Assembly (NCBI RefSeq): GCF_029846175.1
Contig: NZ_JARWAC010000004.1
Span: 248,001 to 312,000, forward strand
From: Sphaerisporangium sp. TRM90804
GTDB taxonomy: Bacteria > Actinomycetota > Actinomycetes > Streptosporangiales > Streptosporangiaceae
Direction of reading: 5' to 3'
DNA length: 64,000 nucleotides
The position numbers and the translations under genes are program-made. Of the stretch, positions 13,663 to 64,000 are shown in pieces (within the stretch, counting starts at the first letter, position 1; each line of letters opens with the position of its first letter). The notes under the pieces are model-generated. The model had not been told where the DNA came from, did no database searches, and was given only the letters and a program-made list of their open reading frames with translations.

Positions 13663-13819
13663 ATTCTCTTTTCGAGACGCCTTACGGGAAGTTTACCATT
13701 CCGGACTTATTGGCGAGGCGCAGAGAAGGCACCCAAGAAGGTCGGCCAGACAGCCATCGTCCCACGTCACCGACGACGGCAGTTGTGCGAAGAAATGCGA
13801 ACGCTCGACTTATCTCAGC

Positions 13820-13897
13820 GAAACTCAGGGAAACTAAGAGAAACTCCCCGGAAACTCGGCGATACTCGGGGAAACTTGGCGATACTCGGGAGATACG
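13820..13897. repeat. Eight-copy GAAACT/GATACT array, phased with the DNA helix
   Basis: GAAACT or GATACT begins at 13820, 13830, 13840, 13851, 13861, 13871, 13881 and 13892 (the last copy reads GATACG). The spacing is 10, 10, 11, 10, 10, 10, 11 bases, about 10.3 on average, so every copy faces the same side of the helix. The bases after it are often CGG or CAG. The array lies in a gene-free stretch between 13953-14108 and the antirepressor. It may be a cooperative protein binding site or a bent-DNA element; it is not a known site to me. Confidence 0.75.
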
Positions 13898-32251: not shown

Positions 32252-33610
32252 TTAGCGCATGCCAGCCGTGGGGCTCCACTGGTGGGAAGGCTCGGGGGCC
32301 ATGTCGGCGATGCGGGAGTAGTGGCCTTGGAAGGCCGCGGTGATGGTGGCGGTCGCGCCTTGCCGGTGCTTGTCGACGATCAGGTCGACTTCGCCGGCGC
32401 GCGGGGACTCGGCTTCGTAGGCGTCTTCGCGGTGCAGCAGGATCACGATGTCGGCGTCCTGCTCCAGTGACCCCGACTCTCTGAGGTCGGACTTCATTGG
32501 CCGTTTGTTCGCGCGAAGCTCCGGCCCGCGGTTGAGCTGGGCGCCGACGACGACGGGGACACCCATGTCCTTGGCCAGCAGCTTGAGATTGCGGGACAGG
32601 TCGGACACTTCCTGCTGCCGGTTCTCCGACCGTTTGGCCGAGGACATGAGTTGCAGGTAGTCGATGAACACGATCGCTGCGGGGTGACCCGAGCGGCGCA
32701 TCGTGGAGAGCTTCGCCCGCAAGTGCCCAATCGAGATGCCCGGGTCGTCGTCGACGATCAGGTGGTCGGCCTCGTCGAGTTCGGCCTGCTTCTTCGCGAC
32801 ACGGGTCCAGTCGTCGGCGTTGAGGTCCCGCTGTTGCAGCTTCTGGAGCGTGACGCCGGCTTCGTGGGCGACCATGCGGGCGAGGATTTCGTCGTGGCTC
32901 ATCTCCAGCGACGCGAAGAACACCGGGAGCTTCAGCCGCACGCCGACGTGCAAAGCCATGTTGACCATCAGGACCGACTTGCCCATGCCGGGTCGGGCAC
33001 CGACCACGATCAACTGTCCGGGGCGGAGCCTGGTCACCAGGGAGTCGAGGTCGACCCATCCGGTGGTGACCCCGACCTCGGGGGCCTTGGACTCCAGGCG
33101 GTCCAGGTAGGGCCCGATCAGCTCCGAGACGGGCTTCGCGGACGACCCTTCCGGGACTTCAGCGACCTGGTCGAGGATCTTCCTGGACTGTTCGGCGACG
33201 TCCTCGATGTCCAAGTCCGAGCGCGACCCGAGGGCCTTCAGGCGCCTGCCGGCCATGAACAACTTGCGGCGGAAGTACTGCTCCTGGAGCAGCCGCAGGT
33301 GGTACTCGATGTGACCGGCCGCGGTCACCGACTCGATCAGGTCGAACAACAGCCGCGGGTGGACCTGCTCCCGTTCCTGGGTGCTGCGGCGCTCCAGTTC
33401 GGCCCTGACGGTCACGATGTCTACGGGGGCGGACCGCTCGACCAGGGAGGTGACGCACTCGAACACGACTTGGTGTGCCGCCCGGTAGAAGTGCCGGATC
33501 GTGAGGGTGTCGACGACCAGGCCGGCGGATTCGGGGGACAGCATCGCGGCGCCGAGGACCGACCGTTCGGCTTCGAGGTCGTGGGGAAGGTCCGCGTAGT
33601 CCTCGCTCAT
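32252..33610 (-). CDS. dnaB: Replicative DNA helicase, DnaB family
   Basis: A 452-residue hexameric helicase, of normal DnaB length. The N-terminal domain spans residues 5-110 (ERSVLGAAMLSPESAGLVVD), the linker 110-180 and the RecA-like domain from about 180: Walker A GARPGMGKS (204-212), Walker B VFIDYLQLM (314-322), QLNRGPE near 358 and RESGSLEQDADIVILL near 377. It unwinds DNA at the fork using ATP. ATG 33610 overlaps the loader stop by four bases. It forms a module with the loader and initiator genes. Confidence 0.97.
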   Translation of the reverse strand: MSEDYADLPHDLEAERSVLGAAMLSPESAGLVVDTLTIRHFYRAAHQVVFECVTSLVERSAPVDIVTVRAELERRSTQEREQVHPRLLFDLIESVTAAGHIEYHLRLLQEQYFRRKLFMAGRRLKALGSRSDLDIEDVAEQSRKILDQVAEVPEGSSAKPVSELIGPYLDRLESKAPEVGVTTGWVDLDSLVTRLRPGQLIVVGARPGMGKSVLMVNMALHVGVRLKLPVFFASLEMSHDEILARMVAHEAGVTLQKLQQRDLNADDWTRVAKKQAELDEADHLIVDDDPGISIGHLRAKLSTMRRSGHPAAIVFIDYLQLMSSAKRSENRQQEVSDLSRNLKLLAKDMGVPVVVGAQLNRGPELRANKRPMKSDLRESGSLEQDADIVILLHREDAYEAESPRAGEVDLIVDKHRQGATATITAAFQGHYSRIADMAPEPSHQWSPTAGMR

Positions 33611-34185
33611 CGTCCCTTCCTCCGGTCTGCGCCGCTCAGCGCGATCACGGTGGCGCCGTCACGCAGACGGCTGGCGAGCCGGTCCCCCAGCGGTTCCGAC
33701 AGCTTGCGCATGTTGGTCGTGATCGCGGTCGGCAACCCGTGCTGCCACCGCTCGTCGACGACCGACAGCAGGCACTCCCGCTGCCAGTCGTTGATCCGGA
33801 ACGACCCGAGATCGTCCAGCGCGAGGAAGTCGACGACCCGCATCGCGCGGAGCTGCTCGCGGTCTACGGGCGGCGCGGTGGCGTCCTGCCAGTCAGCGGA
33901 CGTGGCGACCTTGAACCCACCCAGCCACCCGGCCCGCACGGCGCGGTCCAGGGCTTCCCAGACGCTCCAGGTCTTCCCCACGCCCACGTCGCCGACGACC
34001 ACGAGGTTCCCGGCCCTGCGGGCGACCAGCTCGGCGGACCACGCGGCGATGCGCTGGTCGAGCACTCCCTGGTGGGAGAGCTGCGGCGGGCGCTGGGCGC
34101 GAATGGTGTTGAGCCGGAGCGCTAGCCGGTCGGCGCGCCACTCGGCGTCGAGAAGCTCCTCAACGGGCTCGCGGGTCTCAGTCAT
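33607..34185 (-). CDS. Helicase loader, DnaC-like AAA+ ATPase
   Basis: A 192-residue AAA+ protein. Walker A is GDVGVGKT (65-72), Walker B LALDDLG (121-127), with TTNMR as sensor 1 near 158. This is the short DnaC/IstB-type loader that brings DnaB onto initiator-bound DNA. ATG 34185 lies in an 8-bp overlap (ATGACTGA) with the initiator gene, so both are coupled. Confidence 0.92.
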   Translation of the reverse strand: MTETREPVEELLDAEWRADRLALRLNTIRAQRPPQLSHQGVLDQRIAAWSAELVARRAGNLVVVGDVGVGKTWSVWEALDRAVRAGWLGGFKVATSADWQDATAPPVDREQLRAMRVVDFLALDDLGSFRINDWQRECLLSVVDERWQHGLPTAITTNMRKLSEPLGDRLASRLRDGATVIALSGADRRKGR

Positions 34186-35296
34186 TCCCGAACACGTCCT
34201 CAGGGTCGTCGGAATAGGGCTGGGATCGATCGATGTGGGGGCCAGAGCCGTTGCCGGAGCGGCCGTCGGTGCCGGCGTGCCACCGACCGTGGATCTGGCC
34301 TCCACCGCGCTCGCCGCGTGACTTCATTTCAAGAGCGCCGTACTTCTCGCGGAACTTGGGCAGCGCGTTGATGTTCAGCGACCAAAAGCCATCCCGCTGC
34401 GACCAGTCGAGGACATCGAGAGCCTCAGCCAGCGGGATGCCGTCGAGGTCCAAAAGCTTGCGCGCCTCGTCGCGCCAGCCGTCGGGCACGGCGGCGGGGC
34501 GCTGGCGGTAGTTCTTCTTGATCAGCCACTGAAGGAGTCGGGCGCAGAGCTGCTCGACGTCCTCTCTCGGTGGGGCGTCCGCCAGCTTGGGCTTGGTTCG
34601 CTTCTTCGGACGAGAAGAAGAAGTTCTTTTCTCGTAGTTCTCCGTAGGAGAACTACTTGCGCGGCCAATTTGGCCGGTAGGCAGGTCAGACCCAGTGGCC
34701 AGATTGGCCAGTGGCCAGATTGGCCGCTGGTCGGCCTCACCATCGGCCGAATTGGCCACTGGGTTCGACCTGGCGGTATCCGTTTCGTCCCCTTCGACCA
34801 CCGGCCAATCTGGCCACAGGTCGGCCTGCCTACCGGCCAAATTGGCCGGTGGGTTGACCTGCCTACCGTCCAATCTGGCCGTTGGGTCGGCTTCACCACC
34901 GGCCAAATTGGCCACTGGTGTGACCTGCCTACCGTCCAGATTGGCCAGTAGGGTTTCGCCCGGGTTCAGACGGCACCGATCGGAGAGCCGATGCCCCTTG
35001 TCGTCGTATCGCTTGTGCCGCTGAATGTGACCGCCCTCCTCCAACTGCTCCATATAGCGGCGCACCGAGCGGGCTGGCACTAGCGCTACGGCGGCGATTT
35101 CTTCCTGACTGGCTGCGCACTCCCACGCGTCGTCCGCCATGCCCGCAAGGCTGAGCAAGACGATCCGTGCGCCGGGGTTGTTCGCGATCGGCTGGGCCCA
35201 TGCCCATTCAGCCGCCTCGCCGTCCAGGCACACAGGGCGCTCGCCGGCGGCTGACGTGCCGGTCTGGGCTTCACCCTGGAGCGTGTTGTCGTTCAC
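34178..35296 (-). CDS. Phage replication initiator, winged helix protein with internal origin
   Basis: A 372-residue protein. Residues 35-110 are a winged helix-turn-helix (ECAASQEEIAAVALVPARSV, then RRYMEQLEEGGHIQRHKRYD), like initiators of the DnaD/lambda O type. Residues 115-215 are a repetitive, low-complexity linker (VANLAGGEADPTARLDGRQV and similar) encoded by the iteron array. Residues 245-345 are a second helical domain (LLQWLIKKNYRQRP, SQRDGFWSLNINALPKFREK), probably the loader-binding part. Starts at GTG 35296. It should bind its own gene as origin and recruit the loader and helicase. Confidence 0.85.
   Translation of the reverse strand: MNDNTLQGEAQTGTSAAGERPVCLDGEAAEWAWAQPIANNPGARIVLLSLAGMADDAWECAASQEEIAAVALVPARSVRRYMEQLEEGGHIQRHKRYDDKGHRLSDRCRLNPGETLLANLDGRQVTPVANLAGGEADPTARLDGRQVNPPANLAGRQADLWPDWPVVEGDETDTARSNPVANSADGEADQRPIWPLANLATGSDLPTGQIGRASSSPTENYEKRTSSSRPKKRTKPKLADAPPREDVEQLCARLLQWLIKKNYRQRPAAVPDGWRDEARKLLDLDGIPLAEALDVLDWSQRDGFWSLNINALPKFREKYGALEMKSRGERGGGQIHGRWHAGTDGRSGNGSGPHIDRSQPYSDDPEDVFGND
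34634..34656. repeat. Inverted repeat next to the iterons
   Basis: GTAGTTCTCC at 34634-34643 and GGAGAACTAC at 34647-34656 form a perfect 10-bp inverted repeat with a GTA centre. It adjoins an AA/TT-richer segment (34604-34636) and starts 7 bases from the first iteron. A DNA-unwinding or protein-binding site of the origin would fit. Confidence 0.6.
34663..34946. repeat. Nine palindromic iterons, proposed replication origin
   Basis: GGCC-N5-GGCC units with an A/T-rich centre (typical GGCCAAATTGGCC, GGCCAGATTGGCC, GGCCAATCTGGCC) begin at 34663, 34697, 34713, 34745, 34803, 34835, 34868, 34901 and 34934; those at 34868 and 34934 have GTCC on the left. The last five steps are 32, 33, 33 and 33 bases, about three helical turns; earlier steps are 34, 16, 32 and 58. 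They lie inside the initiator gene, beside an AT-richer segment, as in the lambda origin within gene O. Binding by the initiator is inferred. Confidence 0.8.
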
Positions 35297-35435
35297 CTAG
35301 CCTGGCTCTTCCTTGGTGCTTGATCTTTGTGGTTGGGCTTACTCCTCTCGACGCGAGCCCTGTCTTCGACCTGCCGAGTCATCCACGGCAGTCCCCCTCA
35401 TCGCTTGAGTGTTCGGGTTCATCATATGCCTCACC

Positions 35436-35532
35436 CTGTGGCACAGTGTGCGGCAGACAGTGTGACATTTGGTGTGGCAGACTGGTCGCCATGGATATAG
35501 GCCACCAGGTAATGCCGCATGTCCTGTGGCAC
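35436..35532. promoter_or_regulatory. Direct and inverted repeats upstream of the regulator
   Basis: CTGTGGCAC occurs at 35436-35444 (extended to the palindrome CTGTGGCACAG) and 35524-35532; TGTGGCA also occurs at 35473-35479, and GGCAGAC twice between 35451 and 35482. They fill the 245-bp spacer between the divergent initiator gene and the plus-strand HTH gene. A set of binding sites for that HTH protein is likely; exact borders are uncertain. Confidence 0.55.
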
Positions 35533-35541
35533 CATGTGGGC

Positions 35542-36919: not shown

Positions 36920-38425
36920 TCACGACGCGCCACCGAACAGGTTCAGAGCGATGGGCTTGGTCAGGCGTCGTTTGATCAGCTCGGCGTGCGGCTGCTCCAA
37001 CTCGATCAGCACGCAGCGGAAGCCCTCGATGACGCACGCCTCGGCGGTGGTGCCTGAGCCCGCGAACGGGTCGAGAACGGTCCCGCCGGGCGGGGTGACG
37101 AGCCGGACCAGCCACCGCATCAGATCGACGGGCTTCACCGTCGGGTGCGTGGTGCCGTCGTCGAGGCGGGGCCGCTCCGATGTGGAGGCCTTTGCCTCGT
37201 AGCGGAAGGTCGGGAAGAACCGGGACGCGCCACCGGTCTTGGACATTTCCCAACCGTCACTGGCCGTCGCGCCGGACGGCTTCCCGACCCGGCTGACGGT
37301 TGCGCCGCTCTGGCGGTCGAGTTCGACAACCGGGCATTCCGCCTCGCAGGGCCTGCCTTGCACACAACCCTGGCCATGGGTGAACACCACGTTGGTCGGC
37401 CACCGGCCGATCGCCGAGGCGGTGTCGTTCCTTTGTGCGTCCTTGCCGTAGACCTCGTTGGATCGCTCGCCGAAGCGGCCTTTGTTGCTGTTGTGCTCGT
37501 AAGTTGCCCGATCAGTCACGTCGATCCGGCACCCGTCGATGTTAAGTGCGCCTGTGCCATATGTCAGGACGTTGGAGGCCACCGTCCCACCCAAGGGTTT
37601 CCGGACCAGCCACCAGTGTTCCTGGGACGGCTTGAGGGCTGTTCCCCAGCCCTCCCAGCGCTTCGCCATCTCCGTCGCAGGAGCAGTTAGGGTGCGGTCC
37701 TCGCTATCCCCGATGTAGGGCACCGAGCCTCGTCCAGTGCCGACTCCGGTGGTCCGCTCGCCGATGACCTCCCGCTGGTGCCACGCCTCACCCGGCTGGC
37801 CCTTACGGCCGTTCAGCCGCCAGACCTCGGCGTCCATCTCGTCGCCGAACCCAAGCAGGTGCTTGAGCTTGAGCCACTGATCCCATGTGGGCACCATGGC
37901 GATCTTTAGATGAGGGCGTGCGGTCCAGTGCCCTGCCATGCCGTGAAAGCCGAAAGCCTCGTCGATCCGCCGATTCGTCCACCCTGTGGCGTCCCGGGCC
38001 GATGCGATGAACGCGGTCACGTTGAGAATTTCGGCCCGATCGTCCCGGGCCCTATCAATGGCCTTGGATACGTCTAGCGACTTAGGGAAGCCGGACCCGA
38101 AGACATGGACGATGCAGTCCCGGATCTCAAACCCAGCGCCTTCCAGGGCCATGGCGGTCCAGTGGGAGGTGCGGGGCAGCGCCCACACCAAGGCGTGGCC
38201 GCCAGGCTTGAGAACCCGGCATGCCTGCTTCATGCGGTCAGCGAGCCAGGCGATCCAGGCGTCACGGCCGCCCTTGTCGGAGTCCCAGTCACGGCCCATA
38301 AAGGCGACCCCGGCGGGCGGGTCAGTGACAACGGCGTCGACGCTCGCGCCGGCCATCCCGGTGAGCACCTCGCGGCAATCCCCGACATGTAAGGTCACGC
38401 CTTCGTCTTCCCAGTAGGGCGTCAC
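36920..38425 (-). CDS. DNA adenine or N4-cytosine methyltransferase
   Basis: A 501-residue beta-class amino-methyltransferase: motif IV is VVTDPPAGVAF (residues 32-42) at the N-terminal side and motif I VLDPFAGSGTTAEA near residue 455, with HPTVKPVDLMRWL before it. Motif IV reads DPPA where most enzymes have DPPY/W/F. The long middle (residues 150-400) probably holds the target-recognition region. It should methylate an exocyclic amino group of A or C in DNA, likely for protection from host restriction. GTG 38425 overlaps the WhiB stop by four bases. Confidence 0.9.
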   Translation of the reverse strand: MTPYWEDEGVTLHVGDCREVLTGMAGASVDAVVTDPPAGVAFMGRDWDSDKGGRDAWIAWLADRMKQACRVLKPGGHALVWALPRTSHWTAMALEGAGFEIRDCIVHVFGSGFPKSLDVSKAIDRARDDRAEILNVTAFIASARDATGWTNRRIDEAFGFHGMAGHWTARPHLKIAMVPTWDQWLKLKHLLGFGDEMDAEVWRLNGRKGQPGEAWHQREVIGERTTGVGTGRGSVPYIGDSEDRTLTAPATEMAKRWEGWGTALKPSQEHWWLVRKPLGGTVASNVLTYGTGALNIDGCRIDVTDRATYEHNSNKGRFGERSNEVYGKDAQRNDTASAIGRWPTNVVFTHGQGCVQGRPCEAECPVVELDRQSGATVSRVGKPSGATASDGWEMSKTGGASRFFPTFRYEAKASTSERPRLDDGTTHPTVKPVDLMRWLVRLVTPPGGTVLDPFAGSGTTAEACVIEGFRCVLIELEQPHAELIKRRLTKPIALNLFGGAS

Positions 38426-38799
38426 GACGCGGCCTCCACAGGAGCAAGGGCGTCGCCGTCAGCGTCAACGGCGCGTTCGGCTCGTGCGCGTTCGACTGAG
38501 GCTCTGCGGCTGCGCCGGCGGCGTTCGACGTCCCGCTCGTCGTCGTTCAGGCCGCCCCAGGTGCCGTACTTCTCAGGCCTGCTGGTGGCGTAATCCAGGC
38601 AATCGGAGCGGACCGGGCACCAGGAGCAGATCTCCTTGGCCTTACGCTCCCGCACGTCTCTGTCGGGCTGTCGTTCGCCTTCAGGGCCGAAGAACAGGTA
38701 CAGGCTCTCTCCGCGGCAGGCGGCGTTGTTCTGCCACTCCCATGACGGCCGGGTGATGGGGTTGTGGGTTCCGTGGGGGATGCCGGTCTGTGCGGCCAT
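38422..38799 (-). CDS. WhiB-family iron-sulphur transcription factor
   Basis: A 125-residue WhiB-like protein. The four cluster cysteines are at 28, 58, 61 and 67 (AACRGE, EICSWCPVRSDC), the turn GTWGGLNDDER follows, and the C-terminus is Arg-rich for DNA contact. WhiB proteins bind a 4Fe-4S cluster and the sigma factor and alter host promoter use. ATG 38799 with GGAGG 4 nt upstream. It may redirect host transcription after infection. Confidence 0.95.
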   Translation of the reverse strand: MAAQTGIPHGTHNPITRPSWEWQNNAACRGESLYLFFGPEGERQPDRDVRERKAKEICSWCPVRSDCLDYATSRPEKYGTWGGLNDDERDVERRRRSRRASVERARAERAVDADGDALAPVEAAS

Positions 38800-39311
38800 C
38801 ACGCCTCCTCAAGGGCGGTTACGGCGTGCTCGGTGACCTCGGCGTCGCCGGGGGTATGGTCGGGCGTTTCCTCGATCAGCCGGTTGTGGATCGCCATTTG
38901 GGCGCGGGGCACGCCCACCGTGCGTGGGGTCCCGCCGCGGGCCGGGGCGGTGGAGACGACGACTTTCGTCTCGGTGACCGCGATCACGGTCAGGCGCCGG
39001 TCGTCGCGGCCGGGGTCCCGCGGCTGCCACACCTGGCCTTCGCGGACGTCGGTGTACCCGTCTTCTTCGCGGGCGGCGAGGAGTTTGCGGAGGCGCTGGC
39101 ACCGGCGGATCGCGTCCCTCAGGCGGTCCTCGGCCTCACACATCTCCCGGCCCGCCAGGACGGTGCCGGCGCGGCCTGTGGACAGGTGGGCGGCGCATCG
39201 CCTCATGGATTCCTCCGCGTGGCGGGCAGCCCGGGCAGTCACCTGGATTTCGTGTTCAGCGGTCCCGACGGGCGGGTTGACCGGGTACACGTCGCGGAGT
39301 AGGTCAGTCAC
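38799..39311 (-). CDS. Hypothetical protein with zinc-free helical and beta parts
   Basis: A 170-residue protein: a helical N-terminal region (RRCAAHLSTGRAGTVLAGRE, EDRLRDAIRRCQRLRKLLAA), then a beta-rich section (EGQVWQPRDPGRDDRRLTVI, AVTETKVVVSTA) that resembles a small SH3-like barrel. GTG 39311 forms an 8-bp overlap with the upstream gene; ATG 39335 would add eight residues. It is translationally linked to the WhiB gene. Function unknown. Confidence 0.78.
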   Translation of the reverse strand: MTDLLRDVYPVNPPVGTAEHEIQVTARAARHAEESMRRCAAHLSTGRAGTVLAGREMCEAEDRLRDAIRRCQRLRKLLAAREEDGYTDVREGQVWQPRDPGRDDRRLTVIAVTETKVVVSTAPARGGTPRTVGVPRAQMAIHNRLIEETPDHTPGDAEVTEHAVTALEEA

Positions 39312-41404: not shown

Positions 41405-43348
41405 TCATGCGCGGCACTCCTCGGCGTGCAGGACGGCGCGGAGCCGGTTGCCGATCCAGTGCCCGACCGGAGGGCTGACGGCGTTGCCGAACCCGTCGAC
41501 CTGGTCTCGTGCGGAGCCCCAGACGATGAAGGTGCCTTGACGGTCGGCGAAGTCGACGTCGAAGCCACAGCCGGCGCCGACCTCGTGCGAGGCCATCATG
41601 CGGAAGTAGCAGTCCTCCAGCTTCAGGTTCGCGAGGACCTCGCGCCACTGGGCGCCGAGTGCTGTGGTGTCACGAGCGGTCAGGGTCCCGGTGGCGGTGA
41701 GCAGGCCGGGGATCTGGTCGGACGTGACGGTGGGCATGGCCTGGGCATGCGATGTCGGGGTGGTGTTCTTCCGGAACGGGAGGACTCCCGAGGAGAGGAC
41801 GCCGAGGCCACCGGAGCCGGCGCCGCCGACAAGGGTTTCCATCGGCTCGCCGACGCTGCGGCTTGTGCCGTTGGTGCGATTCGGCAGGACCCGCGCGGCA
41901 AGGAGCCCCATCGTCTCCGAGCCGCCCTGCGTGGGAAGCGGCTCGTCGGCGCCACGAGGCGCGCCCTGGAAGTTGTTCACCGCGAGCAGGACTGCCTTCT
42001 CGTGCGTGCTGGTGACCGTGTCCATCGCCTGGGTGATGTGCTTGCCGTCGCCGTTGTGCCGGTGCGCGACCATCACCTGTCCGGTCATTAAGGCGACCGG
42101 AGGCGTGAACAGCGCCTGGGTGTTGGTCGCGGTCTGCGACGGCAGCACCTCGCCCAGGGTGCGGGTGCGGCACTCGGAGCCGGGCCGCTCGTAGGTGTTG
42201 CCTGCGGCGGCGATGAGCGCGCCGGTCGAAAGGATCGACGTCTCCTGCTGGCTGGTCTGCGTCGCGAGGGGCTGCCACGGGTGGCGTTCGGAGCCGCGCT
42301 GGGACTTGGCCGGCATGAGCACGGCGGGGAAGTCGGCGAACCGCTGCCTGCATCGCTCGGCCCTGGCCATGGTTGCCGGTGCGAGTGGGCTGCGGGTGAT
42401 TTCACCGGTGTGCTTGTCCTTGAACTCGCGGAGTGGCTTGTCGCCGATCCTGCTACCGAGGTTGGACAGGTCGAGTGCGTGCAGCGACGGCGCGAACGGA
42501 GGCACCACGACGCTCCTGCATGAGCGGCACCGGTACTCGTACTGCTTGCCGTAGCGGACGCTGCCGGTGGGCGGTATCCCGGTCTTCCAGGTCCATGCGG
42601 CTTGCACGAGGGTGTCGCAGAAGGAGCACCATGACTCGGGCTGGTGGTCGAGGTCCGGGGTAGGTAGGTGTTCGTCCCAGAAGATCCAGTAGCCGCGGTC
42701 GCGGGATTGCGGGACATCGAAGAACATCGAGTTGAGGTACAGCACGCGGTGCTTGTAGCCCAAGGTGCCGAACTGCTTGAGCCACCACCGGTACGTGGAC
42801 CCGTCGCCGTACTTCTTGCCCTGCACCGCTGGGCCCCATGAGGTGAGTTCGGTGGTGCATTCGATGAGGATCATCCGAGGGTGGTGCTGGGCGGCGTAGT
42901 GAAGCACGCAGTTCGCCGTGGCGCGGTCACGCTCTGATTTGGTGACGCGCTCGTCGAACTCCGGGTCGTCGAGGTCGAAGAGCGACAGACGCTGCTGGTA
43001 GGCCTTCTTAGTGTTGGCCTGCGAGTGGTTGACGCAGCTCACGCCGGCGACGAGGAGATCGCCAGGGGGGAGGTCCCTGGCGGAGTGGTAGTCGGCCGCC
43101 TCCGGGTCGACTAGGTCCGCGATCCAGTGCTCGGCGTGTGGGTGGTTAGCCTCGTGGATCTCGACCTTGTAGGCGTTGTGGTTCGCCGCCATGATCGTGG
43201 TGAATCCCGCGAGCTCGATGCCCTTCGTAAGCCCGCCGAAGCCCGAGAACAGGTCCACAGCGATGAGATCGTCGTGGCGGAACCGGCGCTGGCGCACAGC
43301 AGGGCGGTGGGTCGCAATACGGCGCTGCTGCGAAGGTCGGCGACTCAT
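41405..43348 (-). CDS. C5-cytosine DNA methyltransferase, large, atypical motif IV
   Basis: A 647-residue enzyme. Motif I is DLFSGFGG (32-39), motif IV LLVAGVSCVNHS with the candidate catalytic Cys at 105 (usually PPCQ; here V-S-C), motif VI LIECTTEL near 161, motif VIII VPQSRDRGYW near 215 and motif X VDGFGNAVSPPVGHWIGN near 620. A zinc-like insert, WCSFCDTL and CRSCRS, lies near 240-290. The catalytic scaffold is complete, so transfer of methyl to C5 of cytosine is expected, but motif IV and the long insert leave room for another C5 modification. ATG 43348. Confidence 0.9.
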   Translation of the reverse strand: MSRRPSQQRRIATHRPAVRQRRFRHDDLIAVDLFSGFGGLTKGIELAGFTTIMAANHNAYKVEIHEANHPHAEHWIADLVDPEAADYHSARDLPPGDLLVAGVSCVNHSQANTKKAYQQRLSLFDLDDPEFDERVTKSERDRATANCVLHYAAQHHPRMILIECTTELTSWGPAVQGKKYGDGSTYRWWLKQFGTLGYKHRVLYLNSMFFDVPQSRDRGYWIFWDEHLPTPDLDHQPESWCSFCDTLVQAAWTWKTGIPPTGSVRYGKQYEYRCRSCRSVVVPPFAPSLHALDLSNLGSRIGDKPLREFKDKHTGEITRSPLAPATMARAERCRQRFADFPAVLMPAKSQRGSERHPWQPLATQTSQQETSILSTGALIAAAGNTYERPGSECRTRTLGEVLPSQTATNTQALFTPPVALMTGQVMVAHRHNGDGKHITQAMDTVTSTHEKAVLLAVNNFQGAPRGADEPLPTQGGSETMGLLAARVLPNRTNGTSRSVGEPMETLVGGAGSGGLGVLSSGVLPFRKNTTPTSHAQAMPTVTSDQIPGLLTATGTLTARDTTALGAQWREVLANLKLEDCYFRMMASHEVGAGCGFDVDFADRQGTFIVWGSARDQVDGFGNAVSPPVGHWIGNRLRAVLHAEECRA

Positions 43349-50700: not shown

Positions 50701-51855
50701 TCAGGTGTCGATGCGGTGCGGCACGAACGAAGAGGTGTTGTCCGTGATCAGGCCGCGGGTCTCGCGGATGCCGACGCCGGCCGCTTCGTCGCCGACGACC
50801 CACGCTCCGAGCACGGGGTGCCAGCCGTCGAAGTCGGGGAGCGGCCAGAACTCCTGGTAGACGTAGCCCTCAGCGCCGTACTCGCCGGGGGTGTCCTGCG
50901 TCTGCCCGGGGGTGACGATGCGCATGGAAGCGCCCTCGCGGCCGAGCAGCGGCTTACGGACGTAGGCGCTCAGCTCGCGGGGCCCGTCGAGGTAGGCGGG
51001 CAGCAGGTTGGGGTGGTCGGGGTACATCTCCCACAGCACGGCCAGGAGCGCCTTGTTCGACAGGAGCATCTTCCACAGCGGCTCCATCCACGACCCGTTG
51101 GCCTGGCGTTCCACCGCGGACTGGCCGAACGGGTCGGAGATCATCCACTCCCAGGGGTACAGCTTGAACAGCGACCCGATCGGCCGGTTTTCCAAGTCCA
51201 CGAACTGTTCACGGCCGGTGTCCCAGCCGATGTCCTCCATCGAAATGGCCGTGGTCCGCAAGCCGGCGGCCTGAGCGGTGTCTTGCAGGTAAGCGACGTT
51301 GAGGGCGTCCTCGCCGGACTCGTCGGTCGCGGTCCATGCGAAGTGCGCGGTCCCGCCGGGCGCGGCGAGTTTCTGCCACCGGGCCGCGAGCTTCTCGTGG
51401 ATGGAGTTCCACTGGTCGCTGTCGGGGTGGACGTCCTGGAGCCAGAACCACTGGATGACCGACGCCTCGACGAGGCTGGTCGGGGTGTCGGCGTTGTACT
51501 CCAGCAGCTTGGCGTGCCCGGCGCCGTCGTAGCACAGGTCGAACCGGCCATACAGGTGCGGGTCGTGGCGCTTCCACGAGGCGCGGATCGGTTCCCAGCA
51601 CCACTCGGGGATTCCGAAGTCGGCGTACCGCTTGCGCTTGATCACCCAGTCGACGGCCTTGAGGCACATGTCGTGCAGCTCCTCGACCGCGGCCTCCAGG
51701 TCCAAGACTTCGGCCATGGTGAAGACGTAGTGGGCTGCTTCGTCCCAGTACGGGCGCCCGTCATACCCGGGCGCTACCGACCGGTGAAACCCGAGCCCCT
51801 GGGACTCCACCAGGGCTTCCCAGCCCGGGCGCCGGTCCCCCAGTTCGCGGCGCAT
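50701..51855 (-). CDS. YgiC-like glutathionylspermidine synthase family protein
   Basis: A 384-residue ATP-grasp protein of the glutathionylspermidine-synthase family (synthetase domain only, as in E. coli YgiC, about 386 residues). Visible are FDLCYDGAGHAKLLEYNADT with N-x-D-T-P-T (substrate and metal side) near 120, NKALLAVLWEMYPDHPNLLP, RKPLLGREGASMRIV (ATP-grasp) near 302, and GYVYQEFWPLPDF near 334. Substrate unknown; polyamine or peptide ligation is the family chemistry. ATG 51855 forms TGATG with the lipoprotein gene stop. Confidence 0.9.
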   Translation of the reverse strand: MRRELGDRRPGWEALVESQGLGFHRSVAPGYDGRPYWDEAAHYVFTMAEVLDLEAAVEELHDMCLKAVDWVIKRKRYADFGIPEWCWEPIRASWKRHDPHLYGRFDLCYDGAGHAKLLEYNADTPTSLVEASVIQWFWLQDVHPDSDQWNSIHEKLAARWQKLAAPGGTAHFAWTATDESGEDALNVAYLQDTAQAAGLRTTAISMEDIGWDTGREQFVDLENRPIGSLFKLYPWEWMISDPFGQSAVERQANGSWMEPLWKMLLSNKALLAVLWEMYPDHPNLLPAYLDGPRELSAYVRKPLLGREGASMRIVTPGQTQDTPGEYGAEGYVYQEFWPLPDFDGWHPVLGAWVVGDEAAGVGIRETRGLITDNTSSFVPHRIDT

Positions 51856-52193
51856 CAGGATCCGCTCCCGCCATGGCCGCCGAACCCGCCGCGGATCACG
51901 GTCCCGGACCGGGTGGCGATGTTCCCGGCCGCCGGCCGGGTGATCGTGCCGCCGGTCAGCCGACCGTCTGCGGCGCGGGTGCTGCCGTACATCCAAATGA
52001 ACGCGCCGCCGCCGCTGCTCCCACCGCCACCGCTGTTGCAGTGCCGGTCATCGACCGCCTTGTAGGAGCCGTCGGCCTGCTTGACCGCGCAGTCAGCAGT
52101 GACCTGCGGCTCGTCGTCGGAGCAGGCGGTGACCATGGCGATCGACAGGGCGCCGAGCGCTAGCAGGGTGACGGCTCCGGATGCCTTAGGCAT
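51855..52193 (-). CDS. Lipoprotein, YgiB-like partner
   Basis: A 112-residue lipoprotein: LLALGALSIAMVTACSDDEP holds a signal peptide and lipobox (VTAC, Cys near residue 24). After it come VTADCAVKQADGSYKAVDDR, a Gly/Ser-rich linker and a Gly-rich end with GGFGGHGGSGS. In E. coli and in several phages a lipoprotein of the DUF1190 type (YgiB) is encoded beside a YgiC-like enzyme; the similarity here is in position and architecture. ATG 52193. Confidence 0.82.
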   Translation of the reverse strand: MPKASGAVTLLALGALSIAMVTACSDDEPQVTADCAVKQADGSYKAVDDRHCNSGGGGSSGGGAFIWMYGSTRAADGRLTGGTITRPAAGNIATRSGTVIRGGFGGHGGSGS

Positions 52194-63001: not shown

Positions 63002-64000
63002 CTAGATACGGTCACCAGGCGACAACCGGGCATGCGCCTGCCATGCGCGACGATCAGCGGCGGAGCGCCCATACCGGCGGATCATCTCCCATGACGCCCA
63101 ACCGGCGATTCTCATGAGATCACCCTCGTTTCCCCCCGATTCCAACCATTTGTGTGCAAAATCATGGCGGAACCGATGCGCGTGCACATTGGCCACGCCG
63201 GCTTGCTTGCCACGGCGCTTCAACATCTGGTGTATGCCGGAGTTCTTCAACTGCCCCTTAGGGCCAAGCCACAGCCACCCGCTTTCGGCCAATGGATGGC
63301 GGGCCCGGGCTCGAATGTAACGATCCAAGTCCCGGGCCGCTTTGTTACCGACGGGTACGAACATCGTGTCGCCCCCCTTCTTGCGGATCCGCAGCAGCTT
63401 GCGTGACAGCAGGACGTCGCTGGCGTCCTGGTCGGCCGAGTAGCGCAAGCCGGCCAACGAGTCCAGGCGCATACCGGTGTCGACGAGAAGGCGGAGCAGG
63501 GCTGTGTCCCGCCGGTCGACGAACGACGTGCCCGAGGCAGCTTTGAACAGCTTGATCAGATCTTCGTCGTCGAACGTCTCAGTGGGGTGGTCGGGGACCT
63601 TAGGTTGATCTACGTTGGCCATGGGGTTGGCGCTGTGGCGTTCGCCTTCGGCCACCAACCAGCGGAACATCACCCGGAGGTTGCGGAAGTGCTTGGCGGT
63701 GTCCCCAGGGCTGGACTGGGCGATGGAGCAGCCGCAGGGCTCCGGTTCGTCGTCCGGTTCGGCGCCGGGGATCCAGCACCCGTTCAATTTGACGCTGAGA
63801 TAGCTGCGTAGATGCTCGGCCTGGACTCCCTCGACGGTGTTGGGCATGTCATGCTCGTCGAGGTAGTCACAGAACTGGCGGCCCGTGAGGAGGTACGAGG
63901 TGATCGTCCCTTTGGAGCGGTTGGCCGCGGTGAGTGCCAGATCCCAGGAGTCGAGCAAAGTTCGCAACTCCGGTGATCTATCCTTAGTCTTGCGCCGGGG
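63002..64000 (-). CDS. int: Tyrosine integrase (5' end at or beyond the window edge)
   Basis: At least 321 residues of a phage integrase. The N-terminal SAM-like DNA-binding part ([20 protein letters not shown]) is followed by the catalytic domain: Arg in DTGMRLDSL, Lys in [19 protein letters not shown] (H-x-x-R), the Trp of AGWAS in the position of the last His, and the nucleophile Tyr in IRRYGRS. TTG 63967 is a possible start, but the frame stays open, without stop, up to position 64000 with a protein-like [15 protein letters not shown], so the real start may be outside the window. It would catalyse integration and excision. Confidence 0.9.

Follow-up and report, generated by a model that had tools for sequence, protein, structure and literature searches.

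A very probable lambda-type replication origin with nine dyad-symmetric iterons inside the initiator gene of a prophage

Introduction

Lambda-type origins, in which replication starts inside the gene of the initiator itself, are a known kind. The lambda record (NC_001416) annotates four iterons in gene O, spaced 20, 24 and 23 bp; these are inverted repeats of the TCCCTC-AAAAC-GAGGGA type, after which comes an AT-rich stretch. An excerpt of PMC6022878 describes them as 18-bp inverted repeats of hyphenated symmetry, and inverted repeats in ori-lambda are described together with dimers of O in an excerpt of PMC5043065. The phages lambda, P22 and L seem to differ from one another in the iterons that their initiator genes contain (PMC8022706, in excerpt), and the SPP1 origin oriL, situated within the initiator gene 38, combines repeats with an AT-rich unwinding element and is accompanied by a loader, gp39, and the DnaB-like gp40 (PMC6316719, in excerpt). 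In Stx phages, according to a portion of PMC7466680, iteron changes were made without altering the O protein, and two extra iterons were crucial for plasmid transformation. For extrachromosomal mycobacterial prophages, the authors of PMC7157519 report, in an excerpt of that paper, that the region from the tail genes to parS-L lacks repeated motifs, and suggest that the origin lies in repA or immediately upstream of it, as in lambda.

The window analysed here is the whole 64-kb stretch between positions 248001 and 312000 of contig C34, within an 8.3-Mb genome; the coordinates given below are those of the window. Its phage genes include an integrase (63002-63967), a RecE-like exonuclease, an anti-repressor and a weak match to a minor-tail protein. 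We examined a cluster of repeats inside one of its genes, for which an original prediction, made from the letters of the window, had proposed an origin of the lambda kind.

Results

The initiator and the adjoining replication genes

Three genes on the minus strand encode, in the order of reading, a lambda-O-like initiator (34178..35296), a DnaC-like helicase loader (33607..34305) and a DnaB-like replicative helicase (32252..33610). The expectation that a DnaC-like loader and DnaB follow the initiator was borne out by matches of the second gene to phrog_50 (E 1.3e-20) and IstB_IS21 (E 4.9e-7), and of the third to DnaB_C (E 2e-84) and phrog_19 (E 1e-101); a helicase loader encoded beside the initiator, here identified by phrog_50, is one of the features by which we recognise a lambda-type origin.

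The initiator comprises an N-terminal winged helix (approximately aa 25-110), a probably disordered linker that holds the repeated sites, and a C-terminal domain. It matches the Pfam family HTH_36 (E 2.6e-5; 24.4 bits, just below the curated cut-off of 25) and phrog_391, 'replication initiation O-like' (E 1.7e-20), and shares with lambda O the PHROG families 391, 2357, 22834, 2514 and others. Homology to lambda O was found for the C-terminal domain alone, in which aa 272-329 align with lambda O 218-275 in an hhalign comparison based on a two-sequence profile (E 1.2e-5, probability 81%); a profile of 12 diverse sequences gave a weak match to the lambda O C-terminus (E 0.028, probability 2%). 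At the level of sequence, the initiator C-terminal domain thus resembles its lambda counterpart. The AlphaFold model is poor as a whole (mean pLDDT 56.6, pTM 0.34), with block means of pLDDT above 90 for aa 41-110, where a helical domain closed by two strands is predicted with confidence, and below 50 for nearly all of aa 123-245. Sequence-profile searches of solved structures returned SlyA alone for the initiator (E 0.12) and no match at E 0.01 for lambda O.

As sole query against the genome and viral collections, the protein of the window retrieved no confirmed relative, and the DNA-pair pattern described below did better. Later protein-profile searches yielded no further near relative, the three viral loci matched being already known, and matched 19 of 345 genomes of the order, as an earlier search had done.

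Several neighbouring features are recorded for their own sake. Two DNA methyltransferases are predicted near the origin, of the N4/N6 type (36920-38425) and the C5 type (41405-43348). A gene for a WhiB-like regulator (38422-38802) is situated close to the replication genes, and the Streptomyces phages Alderaan and Austintatious carry WhiB genes two genes upstream of their initiators. The gap upstream of the initiator contains, at 35435-35538, the related repeats TGTGGCACAGTGTG / TGTGGCACCATGTG and a pair spaced 24 bp apart, which are possibly repressor operators. Elsewhere in the window, short tandem repeats with 10- and 20-bp units (13814-13890) adjoin the anti-repressor gene, and a glutathionylspermidine synthase-like gene (50701-51996; phrog_6215, E 7e-126) lies inside the prophage.

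An array of nine dyad sites

The array occupies 34663-34946 (gene positions 351-634), well within the initiator coding sequence, and nine units of the GGCC-N5-GGCC form were confirmed there, seven exact (GGCCNNNNNGGCC) and two with one mismatch, a GTCC arm. From the side nearest the AT-rich stretch, the exact sites are GGCCAATTTGGCC at 34663..34675, GGCCAGATTGGCC at 34697..34709 and again, 16 bp away, at 34713..34725, GGCCGAATTGGCC at 34745..34757, GGCCAATCTGGCC at 34803..34815, and GGCCAAATTGGCC at 34835..34847 and 34901..34913; the two with GTCC in one arm are at 34868..34880 and 34934..34946. Successive sites are separated by steps of 34, 16, 32, 58, 32, 33, 33 and 33 bp, in agreement with the spacing of 32-33 bp originally noted for the last five. 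Such repetition of dyad sites within the initiator coding sequence is characteristic of a lambda-type origin, in which the initiator would bind them.

Alignment of the nine sites on both strands yielded a symmetric 23-bp consensus, CCASYGGCCARWYTGGCCRSTGG, which establishes dyad symmetry for the individual site, again as in a lambda-type origin, and shows that the unit of 13 bp first described was too small, symmetric conservation reaching approximately 23 bp. Two contrasts with lambda had also been drawn, of which that in spacing holds (20, 24 and 23 bp in lambda versus mostly 32-34 bp here), whereas that in palindromic form was mistaken, lambda iterons being inverted repeats too according to the NC_001416 annotation and the excerpt of PMC6022878.

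The loose GGCC-N5-GGCC pattern is no more than mildly unusual in a GC-rich window such as this, with 9 occurrences found versus 5.7 expected, and 7 of 100 shuffles reached 9. The middle five bases are constrained as well, however, giving a tight motif, GGCCARWYTGGCC, with the centre conserved as ARWYT; this motif occurs six times in 251 bp versus 0.017 expected per 64 kb under a second-order Markov model of the window, and the whole 8.3-Mb genome contains nine exact copies, six of them in the array. A looser form, GGNCARWYTGNCC, matched at 10 of its 11 fixed positions, gave 12 matches in the 64-kb window, nine of which are the nine sites, and revealed no second cluster of sites there.

The conservation of the centre also bears on whether the cluster might be a target for restriction or methylation. 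GGCCN5GGCC is the SfiI recognition sequence, and the two methyltransferases predicted nearby would fit such a role. SfiI ignores the central five bases, however, and here these are strongly conserved as ARWYT, whilst relatives change the arms and keep the centre (GGACA...TGTCC in L012). We set the restriction-site reading aside on account of this conserved centre and consider it barely credible.

A further sequence, GGTCGAAGGGGAC, at 34787-34799 (gene-strand position 498), lies 16 bp past the iteron at gene position 482 and may be a tenth iteron that has decayed; at a 16-bp step a second site is frequent in relatives.

Selection on the DNA rather than the peptide

The nine sites are spread over the three codon frames as six, two and one, and accordingly encode six ANLA-like peptides, two containing PDWP or PIWP, and one GQIGR. 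In synonymous shuffles that kept the protein, the mean number of loose sites was 2.2 and only 4 of 20000 shuffles reached seven; for the looser motif, none of 1000 protein-preserving synonymous shuffles reached nine sites. The homologue L083 encodes AKLA at some sites and ANLA at others, depending on whether the centre base is A or T, the two being one DNA site read on opposite strands.

Selection acts on the DNA, given the reading in three frames and site counts beyond those of protein-preserving shuffles, and the three-frame reading likewise supports the earlier suggestion that the linker peptide is shaped by DNA sites. The converse would be a repeat at the level of the protein (ANLAG and similar) in a flexible linker, with the palindromes as a by-product of codon usage, and six of the nine sites do share one frame and similar peptides. 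Nevertheless, the remaining three, in other frames, encode the unrelated WPDWP, RPIWP and GQIGR, the L083 peptide varies between AKLA and ANLA at an unchanged DNA site, and the sites vanish in shuffles that preserve the protein; a protein-level repeat is accordingly disfavoured, and we rate it as highly improbable.

The AT-rich stretch and its stem-loop

The lowest-GC stretch of the gene (34600..34659; GC 0.45) adjoins the array, as in a lambda-type origin, and is a candidate DNA unwinding element; the 50-bp GC minimum of the gene (0.42 versus a gene mean of 0.65) begins 3 bp past the array. A 50-bp GC minimum within 20 bp of the 3' edge of the array was found in 14 of 17 array-bearing genes, a set hand-picked together with its array bounds (the window at +3, lambda O at +4), the exceptions being L078, L079 and L082; L123, outside the 17, has its minimum at +3. 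Overlapping the stretch, on its iteron side, is a perfect 10-bp inverted repeat with a 3-nt loop, GTAGTTCTCC-GTA-GGAGAACTAC (34634..34656), and the segment richer in AA/TT and the perfect inverted repeat that had been noticed beside the sites are thus both confirmed.

The three nearest homologues likewise have, after the iterons, a perfect inverted repeat within the stretch of the gene richest in AT. L123 has a 23-bp inverted repeat identical to that of the window, within the AT-rich stretch and after the iterons; L024 retains the repeat through compensated changes to four of its outer pairs, and L083 and L012 have perfect repeats of 10 and 11 bp, of other letters and slightly farther on. In 6 of the 16 genes tested, the window included, no more than 2 of 200 protein-preserving shuffles had such a stem, and the other ten, lambda among them, showed no unusual stem 3' of the array. 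Single-stranded folding surpassed that of shuffles for the window segment (z -3.0 and -2.5 for the two strands), L123 (-4.9) and L083 (-2.6). The stem-loop core, TTCTCCTACGGAGAA, was found in 62 viral stretches, near a rough chance estimate for a 15-mer; of these occurrences, that in L123 adjoins a clear array of iterons and that in L170 two weak sites. Among the family genomes the core was present in 3 of 200 (control 0), namely the genome of the window, G013, beside its iterons, and G214, with no iterons nearby. The stem-loop is conserved in a few relatives and absent from lambda, and looks new.

Serine runs give a hint of TCT enrichment (39 of 92 codons in runs versus 103 of 1036 elsewhere), in runs that mix genes with and without arrays.

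With the AT-rich stretch in place, the possibility may be weighed that the repeats are operators, through which the HTH protein controls transcription of its own operon and not the start of replication. Its N-terminal HTH is as in transcription regulators, dyad sites are typical of repressors, and autoregulation may coexist with origin function. The sites are, however, internal to the gene, with no copy in the upstream gap, and nine sites set beside the AT-richest part of the gene and followed by genes for a loader and a helicase form the lambda layout. We regard purely regulatory sites as very unlikely.

Relatives recovered from the DNA pattern

Relatives were sought independently of the protein with a blind pattern of two sites with 3-33 bases between them, applied to whole collections. 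In viral contigs 11 loci matched, and in 8 of these (L075-L079, L081, L082 and L083, with L075, L077 and L082 closely related among themselves) the sites lie inside genes matching replication-initiator families; L084 and L085 showed no match to initiator families, and in L080 no ORF of 300 nt covers the sites. The reversed control pattern matched three viral loci, none in an initiator-family gene. Among genome contigs 47 stretches matched, at least five of them in initiators (a Streptomyces sp., two Actinomyces, a Spirochaetota MAG and an Anaerolineaceae MAG, MAG assignments being fallible) and up to 42 outside recognised initiators; in 39 of the 47 the sites are covered by an ORF of 300 nt or more, and the scan took in 59 such ORFs. 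In the family genomes the pair pattern matched the genome of the window only (1 of 338) and the reversed control 10 of 338. Because of this control result the pair pattern alone is no proof of an origin, and such pairs of sites arise for other reasons too.

L123 (IMG/VR 3300049142_000060, a 71.6-kb viral contig) has an initiator 58% identical to that of the window, eight motif sites whose GGCC arms are mixed with GGAC, GGTC and GGGC, and a next ORF in which a P-loop was read by eye; L083 (IMG/VR 3300049165_000080) has an initiator 53% identical, seven sites, and both loader and helicase. Both share with the window the motif, a stem-loop, that of L083 being of different letters, and the AT-rich stretch. 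It had been proposed that homologues be checked for the dyad sites, and these are kept in the three nearest, with altered arms and the centre kept in L012 (GGACA...TGTCC); no homologue was seen that keeps the peptide and loses the palindromes, and in the more distant L103 and L104 both the sites and such peptides are absent. A motif-free palindrome detector found the most copies in the window gene (seven; 0 of 100 shuffles), and reached 0 of 100 shuffles also for L015, L021 and L104, two of which lack the window motif; the detector is underpowered, having missed the iterons of lambda itself.

The N-terminal module and the iteron letters

At least four GGNCARWYTGNCC sites occur in four of seven N-terminal relatives versus none of 29 C-terminal-only relatives found by protein search (Fisher 6e-4), a count that is partly circular and indicative only, as the motif was loosened after some of these genes were known and the protein query includes the linker encoded by the sites; L012 and L093, being the same gene, were counted once, and L083 and the other DNA-pattern genes were excluded. 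The individual numbers of sites are 9 in L012, 7 in L015, 5 in L017, 4 in L024, 1 in L114, and 0 in L103 and L104. The 29 genes without arrays, nine of them from named phages, match the end of the linker or the C-terminal part only, and lambda O has no GGNCARWYTGNCC array. Two C-terminal-only relatives contain GGGA-N6-TCCC arrays, of five units in L010 and six in L013. The iteron class thus appears to follow the N-terminal winged-helix domain, and the simplest reading of these sequences would be that the winged-helix module carries its iteron along.

Separately, the initiators of L010, L013 and L094 have a different N-terminal domain and other intragenic arrays, those of L094 being GGAAGC...TTCC-like repeats identified by eye.

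Discussion

The locus is very probably a lambda-type intragenic replication origin of a prophage. The original prediction of a lambda-like origin with iterons inside the initiator gene is, as far as sequence can indicate, the best-supported reading, because the initiator is O-like, a loader and DnaB are encoded downstream, the AT-rich stretch lies on the same side as in lambda, and selection acts at the level of the DNA.

Binding, melting and helicase loading, which we infer from lambda, could proceed as follows. The N-terminal winged helix of the initiator, probably as a dimer, would bind the 23-bp dyad sites in its own gene, and nine such complexes, mostly 32-34 bp apart (one step of 16 bp and one of 58 bp), would wrap or bend the DNA and thereby melt the adjoining AT-rich stretch (34600-34659), the stem-loop at 34634-34656 possibly helping or marking the melting. 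The C-terminal domain would then recruit the DnaC-like loader, which would place the phage DnaB on the melted strand.

Whilst an intragenic lambda-type origin is of a known kind, the iteron class looks new, and a stem-loop is added. No description of the iteron class, its spread or the stem-loop appeared among the literature matches listed, a scope outside which most subscription papers and bioRxiv preprints fall; the three papers that a full-text search with the motif letters brought up were unrelated. A bolder proposal is that the locus represents an undescribed class of phage origin, whose members in at least three bacterial phyla would share a dyad iteron, GGNCARWYTGNCC, recognised by an N-terminal winged-helix module that is interchangeable. 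In one lineage, a conserved stem-loop between the iterons and the AT-rich stretch would fold on the melted strand and give the DnaC-like loader, together with DnaB, a place to land. We put this forward tentatively, as possible but on balance doubtful.

To our knowledge, few origins of actinobacterial temperate phages have been mapped, and the present structure offers a concrete, testable origin for a group of them. The link between N-terminal domain and iteron letters provides a basis for matching initiators to the origins they read, and the stem-loop raises a mechanistic question about helicase loading.

Compared with described systems, an iteron plasmid origin of the RepA/RepE type was considered and rejected, that type having directly repeated sites bound by monomers of the plasmid Rep and the sites here being inverted repeats; the homologous initiator P0002, compared with 72,556 plasmid records, matched one of them, in its C-terminal part only. 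SPP1 differs in its direct repeats and in a second origin, oriR, located elsewhere, according to the excerpt cited for it, whereas no second array was found in the window. In gene 18 of the Salmonella phages P22 and L, as far as the corresponding excerpt describes them, the iterons also appear to be intragenic and are of other sequences, the L repeat being an 11-bp unit. Ori-lambda itself differs in having four iterons of unrelated sequence where nine of approximately 23 bp occur here, and no stem of at least 6 pairs in the 90 bp 3' of its array, and the prophage combines a DnaC-like loader with a DnaB of its own. The likeness to ori-lambda nevertheless covers several features: in both, the iterons lie in the middle of the initiator gene, each is an inverted repeat with an A-rich centre, an AT-rich stretch follows immediately 3' in the gene and on the same side, the C-terminal domain of the initiator is similar, and the gene downstream is P in lambda and that of the loader here.
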